A stretch of 64,000 nucleotides of DNA. Origin: Ignavibacteria bacterium (GTDB taxonomy: Bacteria; Bacteroidota; Ignavibacteria; Ignavibacteriales; Ignavibacteriaceae). The stretch covers positions 1 through 64,000 of the forward strand of contig JAUXVN010000039.1 in NCBI GenBank assembly GCA_030684555.1, read 5' to 3'. Below are positions 14,771-26,539 of the stretch, piece after piece. The notes beneath the pieces are model-generated. The model was not told where the DNA came from, made no database searches, and saw only the letters and a list, made by a program, of their open reading frames with translations. The position numbers and the translations under genes were made by a program. The stretch's first letter is position 1, and every line of letters starts with the position of its first letter.

Positions 14771-15556
14771 ATGACATCCCGATCAAACAAATTTATGCTT
14801 ATCTCTTTTATAGCGACAATAGTTTTTATAATAACCGGATGCAGCAATAGGGAAAAGATTACCAATCTTTCGCAACTTGACGGGAAAGAGTTTGCAGTTC
14901 CAACTGGGACAGTTGCCGATAAACTTGTTTTATCAAAATTTCCGAATGCTAAATTTAAGTATTTTAATAGCGTACTTGATGCAAGTATGGCTGTAAAAGC
15001 CGGTAAAGCGGATGCCGCCGCATATGATGAACCGATCTTAAAAAATATTGCCGCAAAAAATCCCGGGTTAAAAGTTCTTTCTGAAATGATCACAGTTGAC
15101 AATTACGGTTTTGCAGTGAATCTTGAAAATAGTGAGCTAAAAAATTCTATTGATAGTGTGGTTGCCCAATTAAAATCAACCGGTAAATATGATGAACTAT
15201 TAACCCGCTGGCTCCCTAAAGCCGGCTCCCCCGGCACATTACCTCAAATTCAATTGACAGGAAAAAACGGTACACTGAAATTTGGTACGTCGGCAGTAAC
15301 TGAACCATTCGCATTTATAGACGGGACACAAAAAGTCACCGGTTTTGATATTGAAATAGCTTATTACATAGCTCAAAAACTTGATATGCAGCTTGAAATT
15401 ATTAATATGGATTTCGGTGCGATGATACCTGCATTAATTTCAAAAAAAGTTGATATGATTGGCGCTTGTATTACTATTACAGAAGAGCGTTCAAAGAGTG
15501 TGTTATTTTCAGTCCCATATTATACCGGTGGTATTGCTGCATTAATTAAAGAATAA
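14771..15556 (+). CDS. Amino-acid-type solute-binding lipoprotein with reversed lobe order
   Basis: A 261-residue lipoprotein (signal ending ITGC, Cys24). Residues ~30-150 look like the second lobe of a family 3 solute-binding protein (LSQLDGKEFAVPTGTVADK, VKAGKADAAAYDE, LKSTGKYDELLTRWL). Residues ~165-261 look like the first lobe (GTLKFGTSAVTEPFAFIDG, VTGFDIEIAYYIAQKLDM, MIPALISKKVDMIGA, ITEERSKSVLFS). In ordinary members the order is the opposite, so the protein appears circularly permuted. It is the first gene of a four-gene ABC operon, 12 bp before the fused permease. The ligand is unknown; amino acids or cystine-like compounds are plausible. Confidence 0.88.
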   Translation: MTSRSNKFMLISFIATIVFIITGCSNREKITNLSQLDGKEFAVPTGTVADKLVLSKFPNAKFKYFNSVLDASMAVKAGKADAAAYDEPILKNIAAKNPGLKVLSEMITVDNYGFAVNLENSELKNSIDSVVAQLKSTGKYDELLTRWLPKAGSPGTLPQIQLTGKNGTLKFGTSAVTEPFAFIDGTQKVTGFDIEIAYYIAQKLDMQLEIINMDFGAMIPALISKKVDMIGACITITEERSKSVLFSVPYYTGGIAALIKE

Positions 15557-15568
15557 CGGAAATCAATA

Positions 15569-17836
15569 ATGAAAAAAAATATTGTCGTTTGGTTTGTTTA
15601 TTCAATTCTTATTTTACTGCTGACAAGCTGTAGTGATACAAAAACATCAATTACTAAATTAGAAGATATAAAGAATATCTCTATTGGTGCGATGACCGGT
15701 ACCACCGGTGAACAAATTGCCATTACAAGATTTCCTGAAGCCAAAACAAAAAGTTTTGACGATATCATGGATGCTATTGCTGCATTGAAGTCAAATCAAA
15801 TTGAAGCAGTTATTACGGCATTTCCAACAGCATTAAATGTTACAAAGCATAATCAAGATTTAACAATCCTTTCTGAAGCCGTTGATTTTGAGAATACCTG
15901 TATTGCAGTAAAAAAGGGGAATGACGAGTTTCTTTCAACTCTTAATAATATAATTACTGAGCTTGAGAATGACGGCACATTAGCCGATATGAAACGGAGA
16001 TGGTTAAAAAATGATTTGTCCCCTTACGATGAACCAAATATTTTACTTCCAGAAAAAGGAAAACTGCTAAAGATTGGTACAAGCGCTACAAGAGAACCAT
16101 TCTGTTTTGTCGATGGAAATCAAAGAGTAACGGGACACGATGGTGAATTTGCAAGGAGAGTAGCTGCAAAACTAAATAGACAGATGCAGTTTGTTGATAT
16201 GAAGTTCTCTGCATTGATTCCTGCACTGCAATCAGGTAAGGTTGATATTATTGTAGCCGGAATGAGTTCAACCGAGGAGCGCGCAAAATCGGTCGATTTT
16301 AGTAAATCATATTTTAGAAACTCACAAGTTTTAATAGTTAAAAAGAGTGATGTATCAGACAATGTAATAGCAACAACACCGCTACTCCGAACTCCTTCGG
16401 ATCTAAAAGATAAAAAAATAGGTGTGCTGCTTGGTTCTGTTCATGATACTTACGCAATAAAAAATTATCCCGAAGCTGCATTACTCCAATATAAAAGTCC
16501 GCCGGAATTAGTTCTTGGCGTAAAGTCAGGTAAAATTGATGCTGCCCTTTATACAACCGAAACATTACTCGAAATTCTCCGTTTGGATAATGAATTGCAA
16601 ATGCTTGGCGATACACTCTTCACAATCCCTATAGGTATGGGGTTTAATAAAGGGAATAGTCAACTCAGGGAGAAATTTAATCAATTTCTAAAAGATATTA
16701 AGAGTGATGGTACTTTTGATGACATGAAAAATCGCTGGGTATTAAAGGGTGAAACCATAATGCCGGAGATTAAAAATTCTAAAAGAAACGGAACGCTTAT
16801 TGTCGGGACTGTAAGCGATAAAGGATTACCATTCACTATTGTTAAAGATAATCGAATGATAGGATTCGATATTGAAATATCTGAAAGATTTGCAGCCTAT
16901 CTCGGAAAAGAATTAAAACTCGTTGATATGGAGTTCGGAAGTTTGATTATTTCGGCGGTTACAAACAAAATCGAAATGATCTCAAGCACGTTGATGATCA
17001 CAGATGAGCGGAAAAAGCAAATTGACTTTTCCGATGAATATATGCGGCTTGGTGCAAGTGTTTTTGTTTTGGGAAAAAATCTTCAAACAAAAAATGTAAT
17101 CGGGGAAAGTTCAGAGAAAACTGAATCAATTATAACCAATTCATTTTTGTACTCACTTAAAGAGAGTTTCTATAACAATATAGTTTTAGAAAATCGTTAT
17201 CTATTGATTTTAGATGGTCTTCAGACAACAATAATTATTTCAATACTTGCAACAATATTTGGAACGCTGCTCGGTGGACTGATTTGTTTTATGCGAATGT
17301 CTAAAAACAAAATTTTATTAATACCGGCGAAGATTTATATATCAATTTTACGCGGTACGCCTGTTCTTGTAATTTTGATGATAATCTTTTATGTCGTGTT
17401 TGCATCTGTAGATATAGAACCTGTTATTGTTGCAGTGATTGCATTCGGACTCAATTTTGCCGCATACGTTTCTGAAATGTATAGAACCGGAATTGAAGGC
17501 GTGGATAAAGGGCAAACTGAAGCAGGTATCGCAATGGGTTTTACCAAGGTAACTACTTTTATTTATATCATTCTTCCTCAAGCTGTGAAAAGAATTTTGC
17601 CTGTTTACAAAGGAGAAGTTATTTCACTTGTTAAAATGACATCGATAGTCGGATATATAGCAGTTCAGGATTTAACCAAAGCAAGTGATATTATTCGTAG
17701 TCGTACATTCGATGCATTTTTTCCTTTAATCATGGTTGCAGTTTTATATTTTATTATCTCATGGCTTCTTATGTTTTCACTTGGATATGTTGAACGAATG
17801 ACGACTCCGAAGCCTAAATTGAAGAGGGGAGTGTAA
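15569..17836 (+). CDS. Fused solute-binding (two permuted modules) and HisM/GlnP-type permease
   Basis: A 755-residue lipoprotein-permease fusion (lipobox LLTSC, Cys21). Lobes read in order second (28-148), first (164-258), second (275-393), first (406-503), then a linker and a membrane domain (~540-745). The permease carries the EAA loop AGIAMGFTKVTTFIYIILPQ, marking the polar amino-acid family. Each pair repeats the reversed lobe order of the neighbouring lipoproteins. The acylated N-terminus and membrane C-terminus would hold four lobes at the outer face of the inner membrane. One base separates its stop from the ATPase start, so expression is tightly coupled. Confidence 0.9.
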   Translation: MKKNIVVWFVYSILILLLTSCSDTKTSITKLEDIKNISIGAMTGTTGEQIAITRFPEAKTKSFDDIMDAIAALKSNQIEAVITAFPTALNVTKHNQDLTILSEAVDFENTCIAVKKGNDEFLSTLNNIITELENDGTLADMKRRWLKNDLSPYDEPNILLPEKGKLLKIGTSATREPFCFVDGNQRVTGHDGEFARRVAAKLNRQMQFVDMKFSALIPALQSGKVDIIVAGMSSTEERAKSVDFSKSYFRNSQVLIVKKSDVSDNVIATTPLLRTPSDLKDKKIGVLLGSVHDTYAIKNYPEAALLQYKSPPELVLGVKSGKIDAALYTTETLLEILRLDNELQMLGDTLFTIPIGMGFNKGNSQLREKFNQFLKDIKSDGTFDDMKNRWVLKGETIMPEIKNSKRNGTLIVGTVSDKGLPFTIVKDNRMIGFDIEISERFAAYLGKELKLVDMEFGSLIISAVTNKIEMISSTLMITDERKKQIDFSDEYMRLGASVFVLGKNLQTKNVIGESSEKTESIITNSFLYSLKESFYNNIVLENRYLLILDGLQTTIIISILATIFGTLLGGLICFMRMSKNKILLIPAKIYISILRGTPVLVILMIIFYVVFASVDIEPVIVAVIAFGLNFAAYVSEMYRTGIEGVDKGQTEAGIAMGFTKVTTFIYIILPQAVKRILPVYKGEVISLVKMTSIVGYIAVQDLTKASDIIRSRTFDAFFPLIMVAVLYFIISWLLMFSLGYVERMTTPKPKLKRGV

Positions 17837-17837
17837 C

Positions 17838-18926
17838 ATGATCAGAGTAGAAAATTTGTCGAAGAAATTCGGTGAACTTACGGTATTGAAAGAAATCAAT
17901 ATTGAAATTCATAAGGGAGAAGTGATTTCTATTATTGGTCCCTCCGGTACGGGGAAAAGTACATTTTTACGCTGTCTTAATTTGTTGGAAACCCCAAGCG
18001 GCGGAAAAATATTTATCGATGAAATCGATATATTGGATAAGAGTACTGATGTTCCCAAGATTCGTCAAAAAATGGGAATGGTTTTTCAATCTTTTAATCT
18101 TTTCAGCCATCTCACGGTTATGGAAAATTTGACGATCGGACAAATTAAATTACTTGGCCGCAAGAAAGAAGAAGCCGAACAGAAAGCAATGGATTTACTT
18201 AAGTTAGTAGGACTTGCAGAAAAAGCTGACAGTTTTGCCGATGAACTTTCGGGTGGGCAAAAACAGAGAGTTGCTATCGCCCGCTGTTTATCAATGGATC
18301 CGGAGATTATTCTTTTTGATGAACCGACTTCTGCCCTTGATCCAACTATGGTTAGTGAAGTTCTTGCGGTTATTCGCCGGCTGGCAAAGGAAGGAATGAC
18401 ATTAGCAATAGTTACTCATGAAATGGATTTTTCACGGGATGTTTCCAACAGAGTTTTTTACATGGACGAAGGTTTGATTTATGAAGATGGTTCGCCTCAA
18501 CAGATATTTGAAAATCCACAAAGGGAAAAAACGAGAGCATTCATCAATAGAATCAGAAGTTTTAATTATAAAATAGACAGTCCCGATTTTGATCTCTACG
18601 CAATGAATGCTGAAATCGAACGTTTTTGTGAGAAGCATGTTCTCCCCAAAAAAATGATAAATAATGTGCTGCTTATTCTCGAAGAACTTATGATGATTAA
18701 TAAATCTGTATCAAAAGAAATTGATGTGAATCTAACTTTGTCATACTCTGAAAAACGGGATACACTCGAAATCATTTTCGAAAGCGGTGGTGATGAAGGA
18801 AATATCCTTGAAAAAATTGATCAGGACGAGATAGGTTTAATGATAATTAATAATCTGACCGAGAGCATTGAATATTCAAGTCTTAACAATAGGAACAAAT
18901 TAAATATGTTCTTAAAGAAAGGTTGA
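17838..18926 (+). CDS. Polar amino-acid ABC ATPase with RsbW-like C-terminal domain
   Basis: A 362-residue protein. Residues 1-240 are a normal GlnQ-type ATPase: Walker A GPSGTGKST (34-42), signature LSGGQKQR (137-144), Walker B ILFDEPTSALDP. About 120 further residues follow, where GlnQ proteins usually end. This tail (ALPHA: AEIERFCEKHVLPKKMINN; then LLILEELMMIN, LEIIFESGGDEGN, DEIGLMIINNLTESIEYS, NRNKLNMFLKK) follows the order of an RsbW/SpoIIAB-like GHKL kinase fold. Its ATP-lid residues are poorly kept (the N-box Asn is shifted by one, the G1 Asp is Glu), so it may be a binding or sensing domain rather than an active kinase. Confidence 0.9.
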   Translation: MIRVENLSKKFGELTVLKEINIEIHKGEVISIIGPSGTGKSTFLRCLNLLETPSGGKIFIDEIDILDKSTDVPKIRQKMGMVFQSFNLFSHLTVMENLTIGQIKLLGRKKEEAEQKAMDLLKLVGLAEKADSFADELSGGQKQRVAIARCLSMDPEIILFDEPTSALDPTMVSEVLAVIRRLAKEGMTLAIVTHEMDFSRDVSNRVFYMDEGLIYEDGSPQQIFENPQREKTRAFINRIRSFNYKIDSPDFDLYAMNAEIERFCEKHVLPKKMINNVLLILEELMMINKSVSKEIDVNLTLSYSEKRDTLEIIFESGGDEGNILEKIDQDEIGLMIINNLTESIEYSSLNNRNKLNMFLKKG

Positions 18927-18932
18927 AACGTA

Positions 18933-19703
18933 ATGAAAAGTACTTTCATCTTTATCGTGTTGTTAAGCTTTGTGTTTGTTTCATGTTCAAAGAAGAATGA
19001 AAAAATAAACGATATCTCACAACTATCTGATAAAAAGATTTGTGTCCTCACGGGTTCAGCAGGTGATATCGCTGCAAGAAAGTTTTTCCCTAATGCAAAA
19101 TTTCTTGATATGGTTTCGGCTGCGGATGCCGCTTTAACAGTAAAAACCGGTAAAGCAGATGCATTTATTCATAATAAAAGTGTATTGCTAAATATAATAG
19201 ATAAGGAAAGCGAATTAATTATTCTCGATAAACCTATCTCTGAAGTACTGATTGCAGGGGCGGTAAGAAAAAATAATGAAACCTTACTTAATGAAATAAA
19301 TAAAGCTTTAAATAAATTGAAAGCTGAAGGTATTTTATACGAGATGAAAAGAAAATGGATAAGCCCAAAATATCAATCGGTACCGGAGCTGCCGTTGCTG
19401 CAAACCAATAATCAAAATAGTATTCTCAAGATGGGGACATGTGCAAGAGCCGAGCCGTTATCATTTTTATATAATAATATTATTACGGGGTTCGATATAG
19501 AATTGGCTCTCAGAATCGGTGAAATAATTGGTAAAAAAATAGAAATAACTGATATGACGTTCGAGAGTTTAATCCCTGCACTGCAATTGGGGAAAATTGA
19601 TTTTGCATTCTCAAATTTTAATGTAACCGAAGAGCGTAAAAAGTTTGTTGATTTTTCGGAAGAGTATCTTTCAAACGATATTTCTGTTTTGGTAAAGAAA
19701 TAA
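18933..19703 (+). CDS. Second stand-alone solute-binding lipoprotein with reversed lobe order
   Basis: A 256-residue lipoprotein (signal ending FVSC, Cys18). Residues ~26-146 are second-lobe-like (ISQLSDKKICVLTGSAGD, VKTGKADAFIHN, LKAEGILYEMKRKWI). Residues ~158-256 are first-lobe-like (ILKMGTCARAEPLSFL, ITGFDIELALRIGEI, LIPALQLGKIDFAFS, VTEERKKFVDFSEEYLS). It follows the ATPase gene by 6 bp and closes the operon. It differs from the first lipoprotein enough to suggest a different ligand or a partner role. Confidence 0.87.
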   Translation: MKSTFIFIVLLSFVFVSCSKKNEKINDISQLSDKKICVLTGSAGDIAARKFFPNAKFLDMVSAADAALTVKTGKADAFIHNKSVLLNIIDKESELIILDKPISEVLIAGAVRKNNETLLNEINKALNKLKAEGILYEMKRKWISPKYQSVPELPLLQTNNQNSILKMGTCARAEPLSFLYNNIITGFDIELALRIGEIIGKKIEITDMTFESLIPALQLGKIDFAFSNFNVTEERKKFVDFSEEYLSNDISVLVKK

Positions 19704-19811: not shown

Positions 19812-20267
19812 ATGGGACAAAAAAATAATCAACTCAAAGAAGCAGAACATTTTGCAGAGCTAATCTGTGATTTAATGCGCACATGCAATATCAGTGAAGA
19901 ATTTTTCGCTTCAAGTTTTAATATATCACCTGCGGAGTTTAGACTTTTAAAAGTTTTCTTCTTTACGGAATCTATTTCAGTAAAAGCGTTGTGTGAAAAA
20001 CTTAATCTATCTCCCGGCAGAATAACTCAAATAGTTAAAAATTTAGAAGAAAAGAAGTTCGTTAAAAGATCTTCTGATATATCTGATAAAAGAAATACTA
20101 TCGTAACTCTTACTACCAAAAGTAAACCATTTATAACAAATCTTTATGACAGCCACATCAAAATACATCAAAATCTCTTAAATCAATTAGATCAAGAAAA
20201 ACGTGATGCATTAGCCCATCTTTTGGAAATATTAATTCAGGACTTCAAAAAAAGAATTTCAAAATAA
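19812..20267 (+). CDS. MarR-family transcriptional regulator
   Basis: A 151-residue winged-helix protein. The recognition region is ISVKALCEKLNLSPGRITQIVKNLEEKKFVKR, followed by the wing with SSDISDKRNTIVTLT, where the DxRxxxxxLT pattern is typical of MarR. The N- and C-terminal helices form the dimer interface. It lies between the amino-acid ABC operon and the cytochrome operon, all in the same direction. Matching inverted repeats before marR and before the cytochrome gene make it the likely regulator of the latter. The inducing signal is unknown. Confidence 0.92.
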   Translation: MGQKNNQLKEAEHFAELICDLMRTCNISEEFFASSFNISPAEFRLLKVFFFTESISVKALCEKLNLSPGRITQIVKNLEEKKFVKRSSDISDKRNTIVTLTTKSKPFITNLYDSHIKIHQNLLNQLDQEKRDALAHLLEILIQDFKKRISK

Positions 20268-20314: not shown

Positions 20315-21889
20315 ATGAAAAAAATAGTTACCGTACTTGTACTCATCGGATTTGTGATAACACTGGCTGTAATCTTTTTGAAGCCGGTTGAAATTGAACA
20401 GTCTGATGTAAATCTATTAAAAGCAAAATATACCAAAGAAAAAAAATCAACTGTGGATCATTCAAAGTTTGCAGTTTTACAGAAAACTTTTTCCAAACCA
20501 CAACAAGTTACCGAAGCATGTATCGGGTGCCATACTGAACGGCACAAAGAAGTTATGGCTTCAAATCATTGGAACTGGGAGCGGGAAGAATATGTTGAGG
20601 GTCGTGGAATAATTTATGTCGGGAAGAAAAATGCAATAAATAATTTCTGTATCGGTGTCGATGGGAATGAACAGAGTTGTGCTAAATGCCATGTCGGATT
20701 CGGAATGACCGATCAATTAACGGCTTTTACTGATCAAACTAATATCGACTGCCTTGTTTGTCATGACCAAACCGAGACATATACAAAAGCCTCTGAAAAA
20801 GGGGGCGCTCCTGATATGACAATTGATTTTAATAAAATTGCACAAAATGTCGGAACACCAAAACGTTCCAATTGCGGTGTCTGTCATTTCTTTGGCGGCG
20901 GCGGAAATAATGTTAAACATGGTGATCTTGAAAAATCAATGTTCGAGCCTCTAAAAGAAGTTGATGTACACATGGGAATTGATGGCGTCAATATGAATTG
21001 CGTAAGCTGCCATACCAGTGAAAATCATATGATGCTTGGAAGAGTTTATTCTTTATCATCAATGAATAGAAACAGATCTACCTGCGAACAATGCCATGGT
21101 AATAATCCGCATGAAGATGGTATTCTGAATGAACATACAATCAAAGTTGCATGTCAATCATGTCATATCCCGATTTATGCAAAAGTAAATGCAACAAAAA
21201 CTTATTGGGATTGGTCAACCGCCGGTAAATTAAAAAATGGTGAACCATACGAGGAAGATGATGCAGATGGTAATCATACTTATCTCTCAATAAAAGGTAC
21301 ATTTGAATGGGGAAAGAATCTTAAACCTGAATATATTTGGTTTAACGGAACCGCCGATCATTACTTACTTGGTGATTTAGTAAACGATACTTCAAATCCA
21401 TTAAAGATTAATAATCTCAAAGGCTCGTATAATGATAAGGAGTCTAAAATAATTCCGGTAAAAATTCATCGTGCACGGCAGCCGTTTGATCCAATAAACA
21501 AAATGCTAATTCAACCAAAATTATTTTCTGATAAATATGGTGAAGGGGCATTATGGAAAGATTTTGATTGGAGTCGTGCCTCTGAAGTTGGAATGAAAGA
21601 TGTGAATCTTCCTTATAGCGGGCGGTATACTTTTATCAATACAGAAATGACCTGGCCTATAAACCATATGGTATCCACAAAAGAAAAAACTGTTGATTGT
21701 ATTGAATGCCATACGCGTAATGAAAGTCGCCTTGCCGGATTGGACGACTTTTATATGCCCAGCAGAGATTATTCTCCTATTGTTGAAACTACAGGAAAAC
21801 TAATTATTCTGCTTACTCTGTTAGGAGTATTATTACATTTTGTTGTTAGAATATATGCGTCACGCAAACTGAATGGAAGAAGGAAATGA
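20315..21889 (+). CDS. Octaheme c-type cytochrome, tetrathionate-reductase (OTR) family
   Basis: A 524-residue multiheme protein with an N-terminal signal anchor (residues ~5-22) and a C-terminal transmembrane helix (~496-515). Exactly eight CxxCH motifs are seen: CIGCH69, CAKCH122, CLVCH146, CGVCH187, CVSCH229, CEQCH257, CQSCH280 and CIECH462. The segments SNHWNWER and NNFCIGVDGNEQSCAKCH match the OTR family. The Shewanella enzyme of this family reduces tetrathionate, nitrite and hydroxylamine in vitro, but its physiological role is unsettled. It should face the periplasm, receiving electrons from the cytochrome b encoded next (4 bp ATGA overlap). Confidence 0.92.
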   Translation: MKKIVTVLVLIGFVITLAVIFLKPVEIEQSDVNLLKAKYTKEKKSTVDHSKFAVLQKTFSKPQQVTEACIGCHTERHKEVMASNHWNWEREEYVEGRGIIYVGKKNAINNFCIGVDGNEQSCAKCHVGFGMTDQLTAFTDQTNIDCLVCHDQTETYTKASEKGGAPDMTIDFNKIAQNVGTPKRSNCGVCHFFGGGGNNVKHGDLEKSMFEPLKEVDVHMGIDGVNMNCVSCHTSENHMMLGRVYSLSSMNRNRSTCEQCHGNNPHEDGILNEHTIKVACQSCHIPIYAKVNATKTYWDWSTAGKLKNGEPYEEDDADGNHTYLSIKGTFEWGKNLKPEYIWFNGTADHYLLGDLVNDTSNPLKINNLKGSYNDKESKIIPVKIHRARQPFDPINKMLIQPKLFSDKYGEGALWKDFDWSRASEVGMKDVNLPYSGRYTFINTEMTWPINHMVSTKEKTVDCIECHTRNESRLAGLDDFYMPSRDYSPIVETTGKLIILLTLLGVLLHFVVRIYASRKLNGRRK

Positions 21890-22551
21890 TGAAAAAACAA
21901 GTTTATATTTATCGCTCGTTCGAAAGATTCTGGCATTGGACTCAATCATTTCTAATCTTTTTTCTTGCAGCAACCGGATTTGAAATACATGGTTCGTTTC
22001 AATTTTTTGGTTATCAGAACGCAGTTAAGTACCACAACATTGCCGCTTATTCTTTTATCATACTAATAGCTTTTGCAATCTTCTGGCATTTTTCAACAGG
22101 AGAATGGAGACAATATCTCCCAACTCTTTCTAATATAAGAGCACAGATAAATTTTTATCTGATTGGAATTTTTAAAAACTCACCTCATCCAACAAAAAAG
22201 ACTGTCTTAAGCAAACTCAATCCACTCCAAAGGTTAGTCTACCTTGGGTTAAAGATTTTGGTTATACCGGTGATGGTTATCTCGGGATTACTATACATGT
22301 TTTATCGTTATCCGCAAAAAGGAACTATTCAAGCATTGAATGTTGAATCATTAGAATTGATTGCATTAGCTCACACTCTTGGAGCATTTTTTCTGATTGC
22401 ATTTATCATCGCACATCTCTATTTAATTACAACTGGAGAAACCATCACATCGAATATTAAAGCAATGATAACGGGATATGAAGACCTTGAGTCGCACGAT
22501 GAACAAAAAGAAATTGAACCAACAGAAGTAAAAATTGAAAAAGAAATTTAG
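21886..22551 (+). CDS. Cytochrome b561-type membrane subunit
   Basis: A 221-residue membrane protein with four or five helices and spaced histidines fitting a di-heme cytochrome b of the formate-dehydrogenase-gamma / thiosulfate-reductase type: RFWHWTQSF, KYHNIAAYSF, IFWHFSTGEW, LAHTLGAFF and IAHLYLIT. It starts within the end of the octaheme cytochrome gene, so it probably passes quinol electrons to that protein. The C-terminus is a charged cytoplasmic tail. Confidence 0.88.
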   Translation: MMKKQVYIYRSFERFWHWTQSFLIFFLAATGFEIHGSFQFFGYQNAVKYHNIAAYSFIILIAFAIFWHFSTGEWRQYLPTLSNIRAQINFYLIGIFKNSPHPTKKTVLSKLNPLQRLVYLGLKILVIPVMVISGLLYMFYRYPQKGTIQALNVESLELIALAHTLGAFFLIAFIIAHLYLITTGETITSNIKAMITGYEDLESHDEQKEIEPTEVKIEKEI

Positions 22552-22564
22552 AATTGAGGTTTAA

Positions 22565-23080
22565 ATGGAACAGACAAAATATATGAATCCTTACATAGCA
22601 GGTGTGTTACTTGGACTATTATTACTCGTAACAATTTTTATTACGGGACGAGGATTAGGGGCAAGCGGAGCAGTTAAAAGTGGTGTTGTTGCCGCTGTAA
22701 GTACAATCGCTCCTCAACATTCGGCTGACTCGAAGTATTATAGCGATTATCTAACTGAACATGAAAATAATCCTTTAAAAAATTGGCTCGTGTTTGAGGT
22801 AATTGGAGTTATCATCGGAGCTTTTATCTCAGGGTTAGTTTCAAATAGACTCAACTTCACCTTAGAGAAATCTAAAAATGTTACATCGCGAGTTAGAATG
22901 ATTACAGCCCTTCTTGGTGGTGCTTTATTCGGATTAGGTGCTCAGCTCGGAAGAGGCTGTACAAGTGGTTCAGCTTTAAGTGGAATGGCTGTTCTCTCTT
23001 TCGGCGGTATTATCACTATGATGGCTATTTTCGGCGGCGCTTATGCATTTGCTTATTTTTTCAGAAAACTTTGGATTTAA
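22565..23080 (+). CDS. YeeE/YedE-family transporter, first component
   Basis: A 171-residue membrane protein with about four helices. It carries the conserved GAQLGRGCTSGSALSGMA motif whose cysteine is important in thiosulfate transporters (TsuA/YeeE). It is half-size, and a second family member follows after 15 bp, as in two-part YeeE/YedE systems. In this operon it may import thiosulfate or a related sulfur compound made by the octaheme enzyme. That role is inference from context. Confidence 0.88.
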   Translation: MEQTKYMNPYIAGVLLGLLLLVTIFITGRGLGASGAVKSGVVAAVSTIAPQHSADSKYYSDYLTEHENNPLKNWLVFEVIGVIIGAFISGLVSNRLNFTLEKSKNVTSRVRMITALLGGALFGLGAQLGRGCTSGSALSGMAVLSFGGIITMMAIFGGAYAFAYFFRKLWI

Positions 23081-23095
23081 AGAAGGAATTGAATT

Positions 23096-24286
23096 ATGGG
23101 ACCATTAGTACCCGATATAATTTCAAACGAATTAAATTTTGTTGTAGCTATTCTTATAGGAATAGCTTTTGGTTATATACTTGAACAAGCCGGATTTTCA
23201 ACATCAAAAAAGTTAGTCGGACTTTTTTACGGATATGACTTCACAGTGTTACGCGTCTTCTTTACTGCCGGAATTACGGCAATGATAGGGGTTATTGCTT
23301 TTGCACATTTCGGTATTTTAGATATAAGCCTTATCTATATTAATCCAACATTTTTGTACTCAGCTTTAGTTGGCGGTTTGATAATGGGATTGGGATTTGT
23401 AGTTGGAGGATTTTGTCCGGGAACAAGTGTATGCGCCGCCGCAATTGGTAAAATTGATGCGATGATATTTGTTGCCGGTTCATTTATCGGAGTTTGGATT
23501 TTTGCAGAAGCATATCCTTTATTTGAAGGGCTTTATCTCGCAGAGAATTGGGGAAACATAACAATATTTGAAATACTTGGTACATCTCAGTCAGTATTGG
23601 CAGTACTCATGACCACTATGGCAGTCGGTGCATTTATTTTTACGAGATGGGTAGAGCAAAAGGTAACCGGAAAACCTAATGAAGATGTACCTATTGCAAA
23701 ATATTTTTATGGATTTGTTTCAGTTATGATGATTTTCGGTTTAACAGCATTTTTGTTACCGGTTAAGAAAGATGTTGTGATGCAAAAAATAAATGATGAA
23801 ACTTTAATTAATTCATTTCAATACAATACTATAACTTCGGATGAACTTGCTTTTCGATTAATTGATAATGATAAGAGAGTTCAAATATTTGATTTCCGAA
23901 CGGCAGAAGATTTTAATCAAATAAAACTTCCGCAGTCTGTAAATATGACATTTGATGAATTGTTTACAAAAGATGGCGGTAGAATGCTGAATATGAAAAA
24001 TAATGTTAATGTATTTCTTGCCAATGATGAATTAACCGCAAAAAAAGCAGCTCTAATCGCCTCGGAATTAGGACATAATAATATCCGTATTCTTAAAGGA
24101 GGATTGAATCAATTTAAAACAGATATAATCAATTTTGAAAATCCTCAAATAATAGCAACAAGACAGGAAGCGAATACTTTCCGCTTTAGAACCAAAGCAA
24201 AAGAAGTAATTCCGGTTTTAATTGAAAAAAGCAAAAACACAATCGTTGTGAAAAGAGAATCCAAACGGATAGTTGGCGGCTGTTAA
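23096..24286 (+). CDS. YeeE/YedE-family transporter fused to a rhodanese-like domain
   Basis: A 396-residue fusion. Residues 1-225 are membrane helices with the paired-cysteine motif GGFCPGTSVCAAA (Cys107, Cys113). Residues ~246-341 form a rhodanese fold (VQIFDFRTAEDFNQIKLPQS, ASELGHNNIRILKGGLNQF). Where rhodaneses carry their catalytic Cys, the sequence reads FLANDE, so sulfurtransferase activity is unlikely by the usual mechanism. The extreme C-terminus ends GGC, an unusual terminal cysteine that could carry sulfur. It is the last gene of the cytochrome operon. Confidence 0.88.
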   Translation: MGPLVPDIISNELNFVVAILIGIAFGYILEQAGFSTSKKLVGLFYGYDFTVLRVFFTAGITAMIGVIAFAHFGILDISLIYINPTFLYSALVGGLIMGLGFVVGGFCPGTSVCAAAIGKIDAMIFVAGSFIGVWIFAEAYPLFEGLYLAENWGNITIFEILGTSQSVLAVLMTTMAVGAFIFTRWVEQKVTGKPNEDVPIAKYFYGFVSVMMIFGLTAFLLPVKKDVVMQKINDETLINSFQYNTITSDELAFRLIDNDKRVQIFDFRTAEDFNQIKLPQSVNMTFDELFTKDGGRMLNMKNNVNVFLANDELTAKKAALIASELGHNNIRILKGGLNQFKTDIINFENPQIIATRQEANTFRFRTKAKEVIPVLIEKSKNTIVVKRESKRIVGGC

Positions 24287-24444: not shown

Positions 24445-25032
24445 TTGACAACAAGTGTTTCTGCAACTACGGATGCTGAATTAATGCATAGAGTAGCTAA
24501 TAGCGATTCAAGGGCTTTAGAAAGCCTTTATAATCGGTATTCCCCAATTCTTTATACACTCATAAAAAAAATAGTAGGTGATGTAAAAATTGCCGAAGAA
24601 GTTCTTATGGATGTATTTGTGATTATTTGGAGAAAGATCGGTTACTATGATGTTAAAACCGGTAATGCATATTGCTGGTTGGTTGGACTTGCCAGAAACA
24701 AGGCTATTGATATTGTACGTAGAAAGCGATATGATATTCTTGCGCAAACTCCTTATGACGATGAATACGAAAACTCATTTATCATACCTAGAATGTCAAC
24801 TATTATTGATGATCTAGATCTTAAAACTGCTTTGAGTATAAAAGGTAATATAGAAGGAGCTTTGAAAGATTTGACCGATGCTCAGCAATATGTTTTGTAT
24901 CTTGCTTATTATGAAGGTTATACTCAAGTAGAAATAGCACAAAAATTAAAAATTCCTCTCCCTACTGTTCGATCAAAAGTTCAAATAGCTTTGACTAATT
25001 TGAGAGATAATCTTTTGAAAGGGGAAGAGTAA
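24445..25032 (+). CDS. ECF-type RNA polymerase sigma factor
   Basis: A 195-residue sigma-70 family protein. Region 2 reads LYNRYSPILYTLIKKIVGD, AEEVLMDVFVIIWRK, NAYCWLVGLARNKAIDIVRRKR. Region 4 reads LTDAQQYVLYLAYYEGYTQV, EIAQKLKIPLPTVRSKVQIAL. The start is TTG with a GGAG site 6 bases upstream; no better start is available. It is immediately followed by an anti-sigma gene (1 bp gap), the standard SigK/RskA arrangement. Confidence 0.95.
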   Translation: MTTSVSATTDAELMHRVANSDSRALESLYNRYSPILYTLIKKIVGDVKIAEEVLMDVFVIIWRKIGYYDVKTGNAYCWLVGLARNKAIDIVRRKRYDILAQTPYDDEYENSFIIPRMSTIIDDLDLKTALSIKGNIEGALKDLTDAQQYVLYLAYYEGYTQVEIAQKLKIPLPTVRSKVQIALTNLRDNLLKGEE

Positions 25033-25033
25033 G

Positions 25034-26539
25034 ATGAGTGATATACAGAAAGATTTAGCCGTTCATTTATATCCTTTCGCCCTTGGTTGCCTTGACAATG
25101 AAGATTTTGTTAAAGTTTTAAATCATATACGCGCTGGTGAAGAATTCCCTTATCAGGAGCTGGGGGAATATCAAAACTTAGCTTCACTACTCCCTTCTTT
25201 TCTGGAAATAGAAATGCCCGATCAATCTGTAAAAGATAAAGTAGCAAGAAAACTTTACAGATTAAAAGAACAAAAACGACCTGATCGAACAACAAAAATT
25301 GAATCTCCATCAGATGATTATGAGCAGATAAAAGAAGAACCTACAATTGAGGAGAGTCCGGTTAAAAAAGATCCATTTTCTGGTAATATTGATGAAGATA
25401 AAATTAGAGCTGAATTCCTTGAATCATCCGAAGTAGAAGAAACAACAACAACATTTGAATCTTACAAACCCGAGTCAGAACCCGAGCCTGAAATTGTTAT
25501 GGAAACAGAAGCCATTGAAGAGGAAGAGGTTGAGGAAGAGGTTGAGGAAGAAGAAACATTCAAACCGGTAACACCTTTCTCAAGAAGATCACCGGAGTTG
25601 AATAGACCAAAACAAGAGACGCAAGTTTCTTCACGTGAAAAACAAGATAAGCCTGAACGGGATAAATACGAAGAAGAACAAAATAAATTCTCATTCCCTA
25701 ACTCTGATAATGAAAGTCTTGATCCTTACCAATCATTTACCTCAGATGGAAAAGCTAGCGTTGATGCTACAATGGAATCAGCTCTTCCTTCATTTGATCA
25801 AAAAGATGAAAGCAGCGAGAATAGCTTTTCCTCAAGTTATGTAGCAGATTCTTACTCAACAGAAAATAATTATTCATCAAATTATCAAACTCCTCCACTA
25901 GAACAGTTCAGTAGTCCTAGATTTCAATCAATTAATCCTTCTCATGCTGCTCCTGTACCTGAAAAAATTATTGAAGAAAAAATTGTTGAGAAAATTGTTT
26001 ATCAGCCTTCTAAATCTGTTTCACCTGCTTTATTTATTTTCTTCATATTATTATTGGGAGCGGGGATTGCAACAGTTTATTATTTTCTGAATAAAGAAAT
26101 TAAAACTATGAGTAATTCTCATGCCGAACAGCTTGAAAAACTTATTACGGCAAATCAATCCTCATTGGACTATAAACCGTTATTGGACTTGATTGCTGTA
26201 AAAGCAACTCAAACAGTAACTTTAATTAGTGCAGATAAAAACTCAAATAGTTTTGCAAGGATATTCTATAATCCAAAAACTGAAAAAGGATTGGTAAGAA
26301 TAGATAACCTTGAAGTGCTTGATTCTGAACAAGTATATCATTTATGGGTAAGTGTTTACAGAAGTGTAACTTCATTGGGAACAATAAAATTTAATGGCGT
26401 GAATGAATTTTATCCGGTTCAAAATTTTCCGGATATTTTCAGTCTAAAAGAAGCAACTTTCTTTATAACTATTGAACTAGTTTCAGGATCACAAAATCCG
26501 ACATCTGCCCCAATACTTACGGGCTTATTTAAGAATTAA
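25034..26539 (+). CDS. Membrane anti-sigma factor, RskA-like, with long acidic linker
   Basis: A 501-residue protein, about twice the usual RskA length. The N-terminal sigma-binding part (~1-80; LYPFALGCLDNEDFVKVL) resembles the RskA zinc-less anti-sigma domain. A ~240-residue low-complexity acidic and Ser/Pro-rich linker follows, including EEEEVEEEVEEEE. One transmembrane helix (ALFIFFILLLGAGIATVYYF, ~334-353) leads to an extracytoplasmic RskA C-terminal domain (ARIFYNPKTEKGLVRIDNLE, VYHLWVSVYRS). It presumably sequesters the sigma factor encoded just upstream until envelope stress triggers proteolysis. Confidence 0.88.
   Translation: MSDIQKDLAVHLYPFALGCLDNEDFVKVLNHIRAGEEFPYQELGEYQNLASLLPSFLEIEMPDQSVKDKVARKLYRLKEQKRPDRTTKIESPSDDYEQIKEEPTIEESPVKKDPFSGNIDEDKIRAEFLESSEVEETTTTFESYKPESEPEPEIVMETEAIEEEEVEEEVEEEETFKPVTPFSRRSPELNRPKQETQVSSREKQDKPERDKYEEEQNKFSFPNSDNESLDPYQSFTSDGKASVDATMESALPSFDQKDESSENSFSSSYVADSYSTENNYSSNYQTPPLEQFSSPRFQSINPSHAAPVPEKIIEEKIVEKIVYQPSKSVSPALFIFFILLLGAGIATVYYFLNKEIKTMSNSHAEQLEKLITANQSSLDYKPLLDLIAVKATQTVTLISADKNSNSFARIFYNPKTEKGLVRIDNLEVLDSEQVYHLWVSVYRSVTSLGTIKFNGVNEFYPVQNFPDIFSLKEATFFITIELVSGSQNPTSAPILTGLFKN

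Follow-up and report, generated by a model that had tools for sequence, protein, structure and literature searches.

An octaheme cytochrome operon with a split YeeE transporter and a Cys-tailed rhodanese-like domain in an Ignavibacteria bacterium

For the octaheme cytochrome OTR of Shewanella oneidensis, reduction of tetrathionate, of nitrite and of hydroxylamine has been reported (in work that PMC11237559 cites). The subject of this paper is an operon that joins a cytochrome of the same family to a b-type cytochrome, a split YeeE/YedE transporter and a rhodanese-like domain. It is found at positions 20315-24286 of a stretch of 64,000 nucleotides, here called the window, which covers positions 1 to 64,000 of contig JAUXVN010000039.1 from an Ignavibacteria bacterium (GenBank assembly GCA_030684555.1).

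Several described systems resemble parts of this operon. The substrates of Psr-type enzymes are polysulfide or thiosulfate, and the classical periplasmic rhodanese that serves Psr is Sud of Wolinella. SoxY, of the SoxYZ pair, bears a C-terminal GGCGG arm. A rhodanese also sits in the Psr operon of Desulfurivibrio, and a periplasmic rhodanese has been proposed as the sulfur donor to Psr (PMC12142623). PmpA/PmpB and YedE1E2 consist of two short halves, the N- and C-terminal parts of YeeE, with one invariant Cys each (PMC11582611, PMC10812762). Import of zero-valent sulfur has been demonstrated for proteins of this type (PMC10812762; PMC11582611), and in YedE1E2 one Cys in each half is essential for uptake (PMC10812762). 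The wider YeeE family includes thiosulfate importers (PMC11073785), and the YeeE-like SoxT is a proposed partner of SoxYZ in Hyphomicrobium (PMC11582611). Dethiobacter alkaliphilus has OTR/SirA-like octaheme and rhodanese genes in one cluster, and one such octaheme is upregulated on thiosulfate (PMC10376724).

The operon consists of four nearly gapless genes on the plus strand, with gaps of -4, 13 and 15 bases. These encode an octaheme c-type cytochrome of the OTR family (20315-21889), a b-type cytochrome (21886-22551), one half of a PmpA/YedE-type transporter (22565-23080) and the PmpB/YedE-type other half, fused to a rhodanese-like domain that ends in Gly-Gly-Cys (23096-24286). The reading favoured here, predicted from the sequences and given an even chance of being right, is that OTR and cytochrome b form a quinol-linked reductase of carrier-presented sulfane sulfur, with the Cys-tailed rhodanese as the carrier and the YeeE pair as an importer.

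The arrangement is far beyond chance. Unbiased samples were taken from the organism's own phylum (296 genomes) and from the Acidobacteriota, the latter entered via a named metagenome-assembled genome (MAG). The OTR model TIGR04315 scores over its cut-off in 40 of the 296 phylum genomes, and neighbourhoods were typed for 43 full-length OTR loci, the window's own included. OTR, cytochrome b, YeeE and a rhodanese with the GGC end form one operon in 24 of the 43, spread over 13 families. Another 11 hold OTR and cytochrome b only, 10 of them from a single family (f24) of small genomes, perhaps green sulfur bacteria. The remainder are short soluble OTRs standing alone (7 loci) and one OTR-YeeE locus (L073) without that cytochrome b. 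The Acidobacteriota loci fetched include 5 with the GGC operon and 13 with OTR and cytochrome b only.

A named scan adds 80 loci, nearly all carrying the operon; since these were selected for similarity to the window, they are uninformative on frequency. The carriers include Ignavibacteria, Melioribacteraceae, Prolixibacteraceae, Marinilabiliales, and MAGs labelled Chthonomonadia, LCP-89, Acidobacteria and Planctomycetales. Strains with names are found among them too: Mariniphaga anaerophila DSM 26910 (L116), Gaoshiqia sediminis A06 (L127) and Carboxylicivirga linearis FB218 (L131). Plasmid records hold only five places with OTR (four in Paracoccus, one in Photobacterium); the two examined have cytochrome b and lack YeeE, and plasmid records yielded no YeeE-rhodanese fusion of this kind. 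An earlier sequence-only reading of the window had proposed that a neighbourhood found in no other genome would count against it, and the relatives recovered rule out such a private arrangement.

In a tree of OTR proteins, made by a quick method with Shimodaira-Hasegawa-like approximate likelihood ratio (SH-aLRT) support only, the 100 operon OTRs form one clade with L150 and L187, at a support of 99. These two exceptions among its 102 rows sit on short contigs. OTRs linked to cytochrome b only are mostly found outside this clade, in a neighbouring group, and the Shewanella OTR groups with the soluble OTRs.

Some loci depart further from the pattern. L073 and L180, outside the main clade, have OTR-YeeE operons without cytochrome b. 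Their fusion proteins end GGLCS and LYCTAH, so there is a Cys near the end and no GGC, and L073 has another 8-heme protein downstream. In Acidobacteriota, loci L189-L197 and L199 encode a longer multiheme relative of OTR, 1070-1130 aa in length and bearing 13-14 CxxCH motifs.

The rhodanese-like domain (about residues 244-345 of the 396 aa protein) matches PF00581 over residues 258-342 with 37 bits, against a threshold of 22.2. An AlphaFold model, built with 19 sequences and unreliable in its membrane part, gives the domain pLDDT values of mostly 74-90. It is followed by a helix at 356-380 and an unstructured tail at 381-396 with a mean below 50; this low confidence would be consistent with a flexible tail. 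A Foldseek search returns rhodaneses (3gk5 at TMt 0.74, 2hhg at 0.67), so the modelled fold is that of a rhodanese.

The last three residues, G394, G395 and C396, are invariant in alignment A2, and their codons (24275-24283) stand right before the stop codon. GGC followed by at most four residues ends 88 of the 91 complete YeeE-rhodanese fusions, and a GGC tail is also found on 35 of 61 separate rhodanese matches. For comparison, the same loci contain 1619 other complete open reading frames with a length of 100 aa or more. None of these ends this way and only 1 has a GC end, which rules out chance or composition as the origin of the tail. Within the organism's own genome, neither the other readable rhodaneses nor a second YeeE pair have a Cys tail.

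The domain itself has no conserved Cys in 25 relatives, and a Cys in the active-site loop occurs in 0 of the 88 GGC-tailed fusions. The catalytic Cys of a rhodanese sulfurtransferase is thus absent. With none in that loop, the fusions conserve just two Cys, the terminal one and that of the channel in the transporter half.

Bacteroidales show variants of the operon. In one, OTR and cytochrome b are followed by a separate rhodanese, without YeeE; this rhodanese still ends in GGC, and has a lipobox and an active-site Cys in most cases. The other runs OTR-cytochrome b-rhodanese-YeeA-YeeB-rhodanese and has three GGC tails. Given their lipobox and signal-anchor starts, the separate operon rhodaneses are predicted to be periplasmic.

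Further rhodaneses were seen in two places. In Bacteroidales loci L147 (11801-15373) and L153 (11780-15599), OTR and cytochrome b are followed, in this order, by a rhodanese with the GGC end, a rhodanese lipoprotein, a porin-like protein and a double-domain rhodanese, and YeeE is missing. In the organism's own genome, far from the OTR operon, locus L162 (1282-2292 of contig C94) encodes a lipoprotein with two rhodanese domains and an active-site Cys, without a Cys tail; it could act in the same pathway.

The tail invites comparison with SoxYZ, with which it shares a C-terminal Gly-Gly-Cys arm. The predicted carrier is however rhodanese-like and not of the SoxY fold, its tail is GGC and not GGCGG, and a SoxZ partner is missing from the operon in the window gene list. 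The similar arm of SoxY could suggest that the system runs in the oxidative direction. The GGC arm would then carry sulfane sulfur or thiosulfate for oxidation by OTR, electrons would reach the quinone pool via cytochrome b, and YeeE would bring in sulfur to be used in the cytoplasm, in the manner of SoxT with SoxYZ. SoxT is indeed a YeeE-like importer (PMC11582611), and in lucinid symbionts soxY-S3/soxZ adjoin otr (PMC11237559), which hints independently that OTR may encounter its substrate on a carrier. Oxidation is nevertheless quite unlikely: no sox gene is recognised around the operon, several carriers are presumed anaerobes, going by their names, and the module interchanges with Psr/Phs-type reductases, as described below.

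The protein of 22565-23080 (171 aa) matches positions 175-309 of PF04143, the C-terminal half of the profile, and that of 23096-24286 matches positions 4-165, the N-terminal half. Because they match opposite halves, the two are, from their sequences, best described as the complementary parts of a single split transporter like PmpA/PmpB or YedE1E2, and this rules out two complete thiosulfate transporters. Each half has one conserved Cys, as PmpAB and YedE1E2 do: C132 in 25 of 25 relatives, and C107 in all transporter-bearing rows. The features of TsuA/YeeE, a single protein of about 330-350 aa with three conserved Cys, are missing, and the first position has no Cys. The match to the TsuA model is weak, at 51.6 bits against a cut-off of 400. 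Compared with PmpA/PmpB and YedE1E2, the N-terminal half is fused to a Cys-tailed rhodanese-like domain, and the operon includes a respiratory-type cytochrome.

A second split YeeE pair, the tailless one already mentioned, lies in the organism's own genome at 1513-2596 of L002 (contig C149). It has no rhodanese. Judging by eye, the small genes beside it resemble those for thioredoxin and arsenate reductase.

The sequence-only reading had placed an octaheme cytochrome, a cytochrome b and two YeeE/YedE genes in one operon at these positions, and profiles and coordinates agree with it. Its family assignment for the two transporter genes holds as well, though not as a pair of complete transporters. 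The thiosulfate import it proposed is probably wrong, since the halves correspond to importers of zero-valent sulfur. The operon's most informative features, its rhodanese-like domain and the invariant Cys at the C-terminus, had escaped it.

The OTR protein (524 aa) scores 578.3 bits with TIGR04315, against a curated cut-off of 375. It has eight CxxCH motifs like the Shewanella protein, and aligns nearly full-length with the structure of the latter (PDB 1sp3, E 3.6e-122). Counted along this alignment, C112 and K201 are the counterparts of Cys64 and Lys153 in Shewanella, reported as active-site residues (Mowat et al. 2004). Both are invariant in alignment A1, which holds 21 diverse relatives. 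In a larger set the Lys153 position is Lys in 99 of 100 and the Cys64 position Cys in 93 of 100, the rest being gaps that stem partly from trimmed N-termini.

Hydropathy shows hydrophobic segments near both ends of OTR, at residues 4-22 and 496-514, with positive charges preceding the first and following the second. Because of these segments and the charges outside them, the body of OTR is probably periplasmic and anchored in the membrane at both ends. The Shewanella OTR differs in this anchoring, in its clade, in having Asp where the operon clade has Asn, and in lacking both a cytochrome b of its own and the YeeE-rhodanese operon.

The cytochrome b matches PF01292 (95.8 bits against a threshold of 30.1, E 3.4e-27). 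It has six His that are invariant across 35 relatives, in keeping with the heme-ligand His expected of the family. Its best NCBIfam model is PhsC, the thiosulfate reductase cytochrome b, at a score under the cut-off. It is presumed to be the quinol-oxidising partner of OTR.

Genomes without OTR tie the operon to a described system. A search for the fusion protein in the same 296 genomes gave full-length matches in OTR operons and in a few OTR-less genomes; some 20 weaker matches to the N-terminal half only were left out of the neighbourhood reading, and one match (L237) is on a short contig. In four OTR-less loci (L238-L241), genes for a molybdopterin oxidoreductase and an NrfD-like protein are immediately followed by the YeeA, YeeB and rhodanese genes. 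In L239 and L241 an iron-sulfur protein was read as well. The best NCBIfam model for these four molybdopterin proteins is PhsA, at 463-536 bits, which is below its cut-off of 694, and the L239 protein matches PDB 2vpw, called a thiosulfate reductase there, at E 2.4e-185.

This Psr-type arrangement recurs in Acidobacteriota and others (L243, L247, L248 and L251-L254), with tails that end in -GC. L244, L249 and L250 have the module and no recognised reductase. Sometimes the two systems are neighbours. In L129 and L152 a Psr operon adjoins the OTR operon; each of them has a module of its own, which in the Psr operon is YeeE-rhodanese-GGC. Psr-type genes follow the OTR operon on its downstream side in L153, and the contig of L154 ends with a PsrA-type gene. 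The operon in the window itself lacks a molybdopterin catalytic subunit of the PsrA/PhsA type. The rest of that genome has no PhsA or PsrA over the cut-off either, the best score against PhsA being only 51 bits.

A PsrABC-YeeE-rhodanese(-GC) operon is thus widespread, and seemingly undescribed as a module. As the same module accompanies either enzyme, this suggests that OTR-cytochrome b and PsrABC-type enzymes do equivalent work. PsrABC-type enzymes are quinol-linked, as OTR-cytochrome b is predicted to be, and both come with a rhodanese. The difference is in the catalyst, which in the window is an octaheme cytochrome with a cytochrome b, and in Psr a molybdenum enzyme with iron-sulfur and NrfD subunits.

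The interchange also bears on two other explanations. The first is that OTR reduces free tetrathionate with quinol electrons, that the YeeE pair imports the resulting thiosulfate, and that the rhodanese is accessory. The OTR family is named after tetrathionate reduction, the Cys and Lys of the active site are conserved, and thiosulfate importers do exist within the YeeE family (PMC11073785). Even so this is unlikely. The halves resemble importers of zero-valent sulfur (PMC10812762, PMC11582611), the TsuA match is weak, and variants without YeeE keep the rhodanese with its GGC. The invariant terminal Cys is given no reason, and the enzymes that take the place of OTR are of the Psr/Phs type, on which TtrA models score just 29-69 bits. 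Of the pathway that the sequence-only reading had proposed, the link to sulfur is supported, given a conserved operon with sulfur genes. Nothing singles out tetrathionate, and the interchange suggests polysulfide or thiosulfate-type sulfane sulfur.

The second is that OTR is an ammonifying nitrite or hydroxylamine reductase whose neighbours are unrelated to it. The Shewanella enzyme does reduce both compounds (Atkinson 2007, as cited in PMC11237559). Here this is very improbable, as the sulfur genes are co-conserved in one OTR clade over 13 families and several phyla, and a sulfur-reductase-type operon occupies the same place. The operon points to sulfur rather than nitrogen.

Sulfane-sulfur reduction thus remains the favoured reading. 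The commitment to a quinol-linked form of it rests on the Psr-type interchange, the proposal of rhodaneses as donors, import by YedE1E2, the SoxY-like tail, and otr beside soxY/soxZ. The sequences show the gene content and its conservation, the invariant Cys, the single clade and the interchange with Psr-type genes; from these we infer the electron path, the domain locations and topology, the direction of the reaction and the carrier role of the tail as follows. The operon would be a periplasm-facing system like PsrABC, with the octaheme cytochrome as its catalyst. Cytochrome b would relay electrons from menaquinol to OTR, itself anchored in the membrane. The C-terminal Cys of the rhodanese-like domain, on a swinging arm as in SoxY, would hold sulfane sulfur that stems from polysulfide, S0, thiosulfate or tetrathionate. 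At the Lys-ligated heme in OTR, the sulfur presented by this arm would be reduced to sulfide, or a polythionate-type substrate would be split. The YeeE halves would form one membrane channel beside the arm, through which part of the sulfane sulfur could enter the cytoplasm.

A more specific version is on the doubtful side of even. It holds that the Cys-tailed periplasmic rhodanese-like domain and the split YeeE are an undescribed covalent carrier that serves both PsrABC-type enzymes and OTR-cytochrome b, and that sulfane sulfur bound to the arm is the natural substrate of this OTR clade.

There are points against sulfane-sulfur reduction. The evidence from neighbourhoods is correlational, and the direction of the reaction cannot come from it. 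The function of the clade is predicted from sequence, and the only enzymology of the family concerns the Shewanella OTR, which belongs to another clade without this operon. The position of Shewanella Asp150 is Asn in 98 of 100 operon-clade members (in the trimmed sequence set), so the active site may differ from that of Shewanella. As the rhodanese-like domain has no catalytic Cys, the loading of the tail is unexplained. Finally, 27 rows of the tree have a cytochrome-b-linked OTR without YeeE or rhodanese. OTR can therefore work without the module, and the role of such loci is not explained by the favoured reading.

Upstream of the operon, by 47 bases, is a MarR-family gene on the plus strand (19812-20267; PF01047, 39 bits). 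A related gene stands directly upstream of OTR in five more loci (L062, L063, L066, L068 and L070). The MarR-family protein of the window is the probable regulator of the operon. Such a regulator would also suit a protective or assimilatory system, in which OTR-cytochrome b clears excess polysulfide or persulfide from the periplasm and YeeE feeds the cytoplasm, without respiration. PmpAB-type transporters raise cellular sulfane sulfur and confer stress resistance (PMC10812762). This explanation is decidedly unlikely, since a quinol-linked octaheme complex makes a costly scavenger, and replacement by PsrABC-type genes suggests respiration.

Directly after the operon (24445-26539) are a sigma-70-family (extracytoplasmic-function-like) sigma factor and a protein with an RskA-type anti-sigma domain. 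A scan for sigma-70-type promoters and terminators found no signal exceeding shuffled sequences. Before the MarR gene, 14771-19703 holds a row of family-3 solute-binding proteins, one of which is a 755 aa fusion of three binding domains and an ATP-binding cassette (ABC) permease, and after the row an ABC ATPase that weakly matches the histidine-kinase-like ATPase domain PF13581 in its C-terminal third.

The Dethiobacter cluster is among the closest described gene sets. Its octahemes are however 20-23% identical to OTR/SirA, and the available sections of that paper do not mention a YeeE module or a C-terminal Cys (PMC10376724). The literature search turned up no such combination of octaheme, YeeE and rhodanese, in keeping with the sequence-only reading, which knew of no system with its exact set. 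Most subscription journals fell outside the search, so this speaks only weakly for novelty.

In metagenome studies, an otr gene counts as 'tetrathionate reduction' (PMC9040765, PMC7887784). For one large OTR clade, the operon offers a testable alternative: a reductase of sulfane sulfur that resembles Psr and receives its substrate from a carrier with a Cys tail. If this is true, periplasmic sulfur relays could be searched for by their rhodanese-GC tails, and in the Ignavibacteria and Bacteroidales many environmental 'tetrathionate reducers' would instead reduce sulfur or polysulfide.

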